Part shown: positions 9,539 through 9,982 of the stretch, piece after piece
How positions within the stretch are numbered: the first letter of the stretch is position 1
How the letters are laid out: each line of letters begins with the position of its first letter
Assembly: GCA_018670085.1 (NCBI GenBank)
Contig: JABHRS010000029.1
Coordinates: 1-64,000 of the forward strand
Reading direction: 5' to 3'
Source: an archaeon
GTDB taxonomy: Archaea > Nanobdellota > Nanobdellia > Woesearchaeales > GW2011-AR9
Length of the DNA stretch: 64,000 nt
Position numbers and translations under genes: made by a program
The notes under the pieces: generated by a model
Database searches by the model: none
What the model saw: the letters and a program-made list of their open reading frames with translations, nothing else
Told to the model about the DNA's origin: nothing

Positions 9539-9982
9539 TTATTGATCATGACAATCATAAAATTTTTGTGTGCAGGCAGCATATTTTGTTTTAGACAGTG
9601 AATCACAGTCATCGTATGCTCTAAAAGCAGTATTGTCACACCTGGACCTTTTGTCAGTGTCTCCATCTGCTGCAACATAACAGGTAGCTAACCATGCACT
9701 AACCATATCATAGCACAAATTTTCTTCTAATCTCACAGTATCTCTGCATAAACTTGCTTCATCTCCACAATTACTTCCTTCAGGTACATCATCAATTGTT
9801 CCTGCAACCACTCTTTCAACACTAAGTCTGCTTGCTTTTGTGTTATCAGGACTTGTACTTGCAGCAAATGCTTCTCCTGTAGATACATCATTTCCTAATT
9901 CTAAACTGCCACCCATATAAGCGCCAACTCCCATCACAACAATCATGGTTAATACTAAAACTATCCATTCATTTTTTCTCAT
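9539..9982 (-). CDS. Secreted/membrane-anchored small protein with 8 regularly spaced cysteines
   Basis: N-terminal TM/signal (WIVLVLTMIVVMGVGAY) then C-x6-C-x10-C-x10-C-x13-C-x10-C-x10-C-x6-C. Confidence 0.75.
   Translation of the reverse strand: MRKNEWIVLVLTMIVVMGVGAYMGGSLELGNDVSTGEAFAASTSPDNTKASRLSVERVVAGTIDDVPEGSNCGDEASLCRDTVRLEENLCYDMVSAWLATCYVAADGDTDKRSRCDNTAFRAYDDCDSLSKTKYAACTQKFYDCHDQ

Follow-up and report, generated by a model that had tools for sequence, protein, structure and literature searches.

Several disulfide-stapled or cysteine-lined helical proteins have been described. The alpha-hairpinins consist of two antiparallel helices in which the cysteines of the motif CX3C-Xn-CX3C form mirrored disulfides, C1-C4 and C2-C3 (PMC7191063), and among the mitochondrial CHCH proteins, Cox6B1 shows the arrangement CX9C-X13-CX10C and CHCHD1 has mirrored staples, with outer cysteine joined to outer and inner to inner (PMC12114033). 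A study of copper storage proteins (Csp) presents these as helical bundles lined by cysteines (PMC9484137), and in bacteria DsbA-type oxidases are regenerated by VKOR (PMC11208910). So how does the locus considered here compare with these systems? The protein encoded at 9539-9982 (hereafter the query; Table 1) of the window, that is, the whole stretch of 64 kb that was analysed, appears to be an extracytoplasmic, anchored alpha-helical hairpin with four interhelical disulfides introduced via a VKOR/DsbA-type pathway and with rungs that can be gained or lost in pairs, a reading to which we assign a probability of about 0.78. Very probably, the eight mirrored cysteines on facing helices form a rod stapled by four disulfides.

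In the translation of the gene, cysteines stand at positions 72, 79, 90, 101, 115, 126, 137 and 144, so that the gaps are exactly 6-10-10-13-10-10-6, the palindrome that an earlier note on this DNA had read from the sequence; the cysteine region is C-terminal, and the chain stops three residues past the last cysteine. When eight cysteines are placed randomly over the same span, a palindrome arises with p = 4.6e-5, and when the same seven gaps are shuffled in order, with p = 0.029. Seven residues correspond to roughly two helical turns and 11 to three; hence cysteines 7 or 11 residues apart face the same way. The earlier note's claims that the cysteines of each half occupy one helical face and that the protein carries an N-terminal transmembrane anchor hold as well: the mean resultant for each half is 0.97 at 100 degrees per residue, random placement with the ends fixed puts the cysteines of both halves on one face at a frequency of 3e-5, and the hydrophobic segment is present. 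Furthermore, in the second ladder helix a motif count finds an aromatic residue three positions before C126, C137 and C144.

Table 1. Coordinates of the ladder gene, its parts, its neighbour and loci with the anchor-proximal motif
Feature	Position	Strand	Description and basis
Cys-ladder hairpin protein gene	9539..9982	-	147 aa; translation and homologous same-genome copies
Shine-Dalgarno-like GAGGTG	9988..9993	-	5 nt before ATG; read from sequence
N-terminal hydrophobic membrane anchor, residues ~6-23	9914..9967	-	sequence; AF2 helix 3-22; aligns with C17 and C28 anchors
Linker, residues 24-70 (47 residues)	9773..9913	-	TGEA motif common to copies; low predicted confidence at 24-61
Ladder helix 1, residues 71-104 (C72, C79, C90, C101)	9671..9772	-	AF2
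Hairpin turn, residues 105-108	9659..9670	-	AF2
Ladder helix 2, residues 109-146 (C115, C126, C137, C144)	9545..9658	-	AF2
Downstream partner	8874..9398	-	174 aa; N-terminal hydrophobic segment; four conserved Cys in C-terminal half; homologue 3' of C17 copy
Motif-bearing loci	window 9539-9982(-); G000:C17 (L305); G000:C28 (L323, L325); L322; L380 722-1162; window 63342-63914(-)		

AlphaFold2 (AF2), run on the single query sequence without an alignment, gives the anchor helix and two ladder helices separated by a four-residue turn, in agreement with the antiparallel alpha-hairpin that had been proposed, together with a low-confidence helix at residues 46-63; ten-residue block means of pLDDT over the ladder are ~70-92, and residues 24-61 fall below 50. 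Foldseek aligns this model with antiparallel two-helix proteins, e.g. ATP-synthase c subunits (TMt 0.7-0.8, rmsd ~2.3 A, E > 0.001), that is, with generic hairpins only and at no significant E-value. When the ladder is modelled as two ideal antiparallel helices with their axes ~8 A apart, each of the four mirrored pairs can reach a CB-CB distance of 3.6-4.0 A, and the query scores 0.0-0.1 versus 9-544 for random positions; non-palindromic orders of the query's own intervals score 1.8-28.5. Parallel (intermolecular) pairing also fits this model, with a score of 0.09; within one chain it is implausible because the turn consists of four residues.

The host genome (label G000), a prokaryotic genome of 1.48 Mb, contains two more genes of this kind. 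A profile of the query and the bacterial protein L125 (see below) first pointed weakly to the C17 copy (E = 1.77). This protein of 159 aa has an anchor like that of the query and Cys gaps of 6-10-32-10-6. Read from the sequence, a leucine and an isoleucine lie 11 residues inward of its inner cysteines, at the positions of C101 and C115, and thus the innermost Cys pair is missing on both sides. A profile of the query and this copy then matched the C28 copy across columns 2-55, that is, the anchor only, with E = 4e-7, and the C-terminus of that protein, outside the profile match, has Cys gaps of 8-10-10-14-10-10-6. Since the match came through the anchor alone and the ladder lies in the unmatched part, the C28 copy speaks independently for conservation of the ladder. 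In a census covering 390 kb of the host genome, 5 of the 67 ORFs with at least six cysteines contained exact palindromes of at least three rungs; with shuffled spacings 0.86 would be expected, and none of 300 trials gave more than 3. Because the stretches included contigs known to carry copies, the count serves as a check of plausibility and is not free of bias as an estimate. The five comprise the three ladder proteins, a CxxC protein of the zinc type and one palindrome that is possibly due to chance. A 1371-aa frame on L379 and a CxxC protein on L369 were set aside as palindromes of other kinds.

The anchor itself has a wider distribution. A fourth gene, on C28, has an anchor in common with the copies and a different Cys-rich tail. 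At L383 1589-1927(-), nearly the same membrane anchor as in the ladder copies is followed by a different compact Cys-rich tail, CEVCARPGVCDDGTCKKEGSACRCT, which suggests, to judge from the sequence, an anchor common to, and swapped between, secreted modules. All copies have a similar motif, G(E/Q/D)A, after the anchor, and many secreted proteins of the lineage have (A/T)G(E/Q/D/A)A ~10-25 residues past an N-terminal hydrophobic anchor, in variants such as TGEAF, AGEAI, AGQAI, TGDAV, AGEAM and TGAAT (loci in Table 1); the motif could be a signal for processing or sorting.

Beyond the host genome, a protein search among 148 relatives returned no full-length homologue of the query other than itself, none was detected in viral contigs, and the two same-genus genomes yielded no orthologue of the query ladder by sequence. 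A six-Cys pattern matched in 15 of the 148 related genomes, with the query as the sole convincing match. Inspection of weak profile hits in same-family genomes did reveal ladders: G016 encodes a lipobox-anchored protein with Cys gaps of 10-10-21-8-21-10-10, and G023 three clustered proteins with 10-10-21-13-21-10-10, 10-11-21-13-21-10-10 and 10-10-24-16-21-10-10. A 22-residue interval is twice 11, so these ladders keep to the same grid but skip a rung. The profile of the second helix of these same-family ladders matched a protein in G036 (E = 2e-11) that is orthologous to the first G023 protein across two genera (49% identity over 257 residues), with the eight cysteines and all spacings kept. 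Ahead of the hairpin, the G023 and G036 ladder proteins (L385 5402-6289(+) and L389 1495-2352(-)) have an EF-hand-like motif (DVNEDKIVTWTEEE / DTNDDKIITSDETE), and the G023 ladder neighbourhood includes further small lipobox proteins.

An eight-Cys DNA pattern was also run over GTDB and viral contigs; the matches listed are mostly Cys-rich repeats or lie in a wrong frame, and we base no claim of distribution on them. The only convincing real protein among the matches listed is L125 from an Acetothermia bacterium (JACOSB010000146.1), with 14 cysteines in a perfect palindrome, 6-3-6-6-3-10-13-10-3-6-6-3-6, in which the search pattern had fixed the eight positions in common with the query, but not the three extra mirrored pairs. 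AF2 predicts a hairpin for this protein (mean pLDDT 90.8). It resembles the query in having all eight query Cys positions in register, the same 10-13-10 tip and the predicted hairpin, and differs in its three additional rungs, its Tat-like signal (below the NCBIfam cut-off) and its bacterial origin; it is uncharacterised.

Altogether, at least three mirrored Cys pairs at helix-compatible spacing are found in the query, C17, C28, G016, G023a, G036 and L125, with rungs that mostly follow one another at multiples of 11 residues. The two helices have fully identical rung offsets in five of the eight tabulated proteins and offsets that differ by 1-3 residues in the other three; the G036 orthologue, which is outside that table, is exact as well. 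The aromatic residue three positions before Cys recurs in 17 of 34 cases in helix 2 versus 3 of 26 in helix 1 of the tabulated ladder proteins. The MAFFT alignments A4, A7 and A8 shifted the rungs, and A6, with its ends trimmed, was used in their place. The Cys mirror, on whose conservation the earlier note had staked its proposal, is kept in the same-genome copies and in relatives; neither of the two outcomes that the note named as refuting, loss of the cysteines in orthologues or a prediction lacking helices, was seen. The three G000 copies are related to each other, as are G023a and G036. Homology between the G000-type and G023-type ladders (hhalign probability 3%) is not established, so their likeness may be convergent and a repeated origin is possible. 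Three proteins with many x10-like intervals and no exact mirror (L340, L333, L343) were left out of the family. Secreted proteins of the same order have other mirrored Cys modules, with x3/x6/x9 spacing: 6-3-6-7-6-3-6 at L302 436-2139(-), 3-6-3-9-3-6-3 at L285 1715-2293(+), 3-6-9-6-3-11-3-6-9-6-3 at L330 904-2250(+), and a further one at L004 1390-1752(+).

The search of the host genome for DsbA/VKOR-like oxidases that had been proposed along with the hairpin turned up one VKOR (E = 1e-23) and two Thioredoxin_4/DsbA-like proteins (E = 9e-38 and 5e-36). The genomic context points to a partner, a secreted protein with four cysteines. Downstream of the query and of C17 lie genes whose products are homologous by BLASTP (E = 7e-8), with four cysteines aligned, and gene order and orientation are identical at the two loci; with the partner thus duplicated beside the second copy, the pair makes up a two-gene cassette. 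With a profile of both partners, a same-genus genome yields a homologue (E = 3.2e-6; the pairwise BLASTP match is weak, E = 0.035), immediately 5' of which lies a gene for a secreted protein with Cys gaps of 27-12-28, a near-mirror two-rung arrangement. Against PHROG, the partner in the window gives a weak match (E = 3e-4) whose function is unknown. Elsewhere in the window there are a cyclodipeptide synthase (14921-15595(+); PF16715, E = 1.8e-31) that adjoins an Lrp-like regulator in what, to judge from gene content, looks like a DPANN-type archaeal host, three similar nucleotidyltransferase-like genes at 32334-37138 (32334-33569, 33566-34894, 35966-37138), each with a long second part, and two proteins of ~300 aa without a Pfam match (7819-8805(+) and 35058-35969(+)), the former with no homologue in 20 relatives.

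A simple chain of events could produce the stapled hairpin. The protein would be exported and held by its N-terminal membrane anchor, the two helices would zip together, and a VKOR/DsbA-type oxidative pathway would close the facing cysteines into rungs, C72-C144, C79-C137, C90-C126 and C101-C115. Because 11 residues make three helical turns and 7 make two, every cysteine would face the other helix, and rungs could be gained or lost in pairs. This would yield a rod of ~50 A (34 residues at 1.5 A each) outside the membrane, stiff and resistant to proteases, and the aromatic residues before the helix 2 cysteines may pack on the staples.

An unlikely alternative is that the cysteines remain reduced and that the Cys-lined helices bind metal, e.g. 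Cu(I), as in copper storage. The Csps (DUF326) indeed have many cysteines lining their helices, as the ladders do, and the Tat-like signal of L125 fits this reading, Tat substrates being capable of export in folded form with metal. However, the Csps are four-helix bundles with reduced cysteines, no match to DUF326 (PF03860) is found in the query protein or anywhere in the host genome, the archaeal copies are membrane- or lipid-anchored, and an oxidase pathway is encoded in the genome. Moreover, the loss of cysteines in facing pairs and the exact mirrored offsets are needed by disulfides and not by metal clusters. A little less probable again is a secreted defence or effector peptide, in which the linker would be cut, perhaps at TGEA, and the stapled hairpin released onto other cells. 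The alpha-hairpinins follow the same mirrored staple logic, and the shared motif past the anchor would offer a site; against this stand the four rungs instead of two, a composition that by inspection is acidic, not cationic, and the retention of membrane or lipid anchoring by different means in the relatives. A redox-active or assembly factor, exchanging disulfides with clients in the manner of the mitochondrial twin CX9C proteins, is quite improbable: the query tip, C-x10-C-x13-C-x10-C, comes within one residue of that of Cox6B1, and mirrored staples are seen in CHCHD1, but the ladder contains no CXXC or CPC redox motif, and no mitochondrial-type client is known in its context. That the query is an ordinary Cys-rich orphan with a chance palindrome and some other disulfide pattern is very improbable: Cys-rich secreted orphans are common and a by-eye search of the window invites selection, but the p value, the mirrored ladders in copies and relatives, and the census excess all stand against it.

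What could a stapled, anchored hairpin be for? Tentatively, it could be a rigid, protease-resistant surface rod or display stalk, possibly presenting or holding a partner; the relatives are anchored through either a transmembrane helix or a lipobox, which suggests that tethering matters. It may act as a stalk or contact element, in some link with the protein encoded at 8874-9398. More speculative still is the broader proposal that multi-rung hairpins laddered on an 11-residue grid have arisen repeatedly, in DPANN-type archaea and some bacteria, as an extracellular module in its own right; as covalently locked surface rods they would be paired with a secreted Cys partner and could take part in cell-to-cell contact.

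Comparison with known families shows a working principle in common with the alpha-hairpinins and CHCH proteins, but puts these laddered hairpins in a group that had no name before. Pfam has no family for any ladder protein, the query being without a match even at E <= 10, and NCBIfam yields no match at a meaningful score. In the PDB, GDNF receptor alpha showed a weak similarity (E = 0.03) that was judged to be chance because it covers half of the ladder, with gaps. We found no multi-rung archaeal ladder hairpin in the literature, within a limited coverage of subscription papers. The description of the query as a longer analogue of CHCH hairpins holds as a likeness and fails as family membership. 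The CHCH or twin CX9C proteins (CHCHD1, Cox6B1, COA6) are likewise helical hairpins with outer-outer and inner-inner disulfides; however, they have two rungs and reside in the mitochondrial intermembrane space following Mia40/CHCHD4 import, whereas the query has CX10C spacing, no CHCH Pfam match and a prokaryotic genome, with an STT3/AglB-type oligosaccharyltransferase gene in the window. The plant alpha-hairpinins, and the scorpion and cone-snail hairpin toxins with the same motif, share with the query prediction the antiparallel helices joined by a loop. They are short peptides with two rungs, unlike the ladders with their four rungs (seven in L125) and helices of 34-47 residues; instead of four cysteines in two CX3C motifs, the query has no CX3C and eight cysteines at x6/x10, and the ladder proteins, with x10 spacing, are membrane-anchored and archaeal, with no sequence relation found. 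Two-rung stapled hairpins are already known from plants, venoms and mitochondria, and here four to seven rungs appear in anchored archaeal and bacterial proteins. The rule is simple to read: mirrored cysteines, mostly at multiples of 11 residues, would make fold and connectivity predictable from sequence for proteins outside every family library, which opens a way into the still uncharacterised surface proteins of these archaea and offers, in the ladder hairpins themselves, a natural template for ultra-stable designed hairpins.
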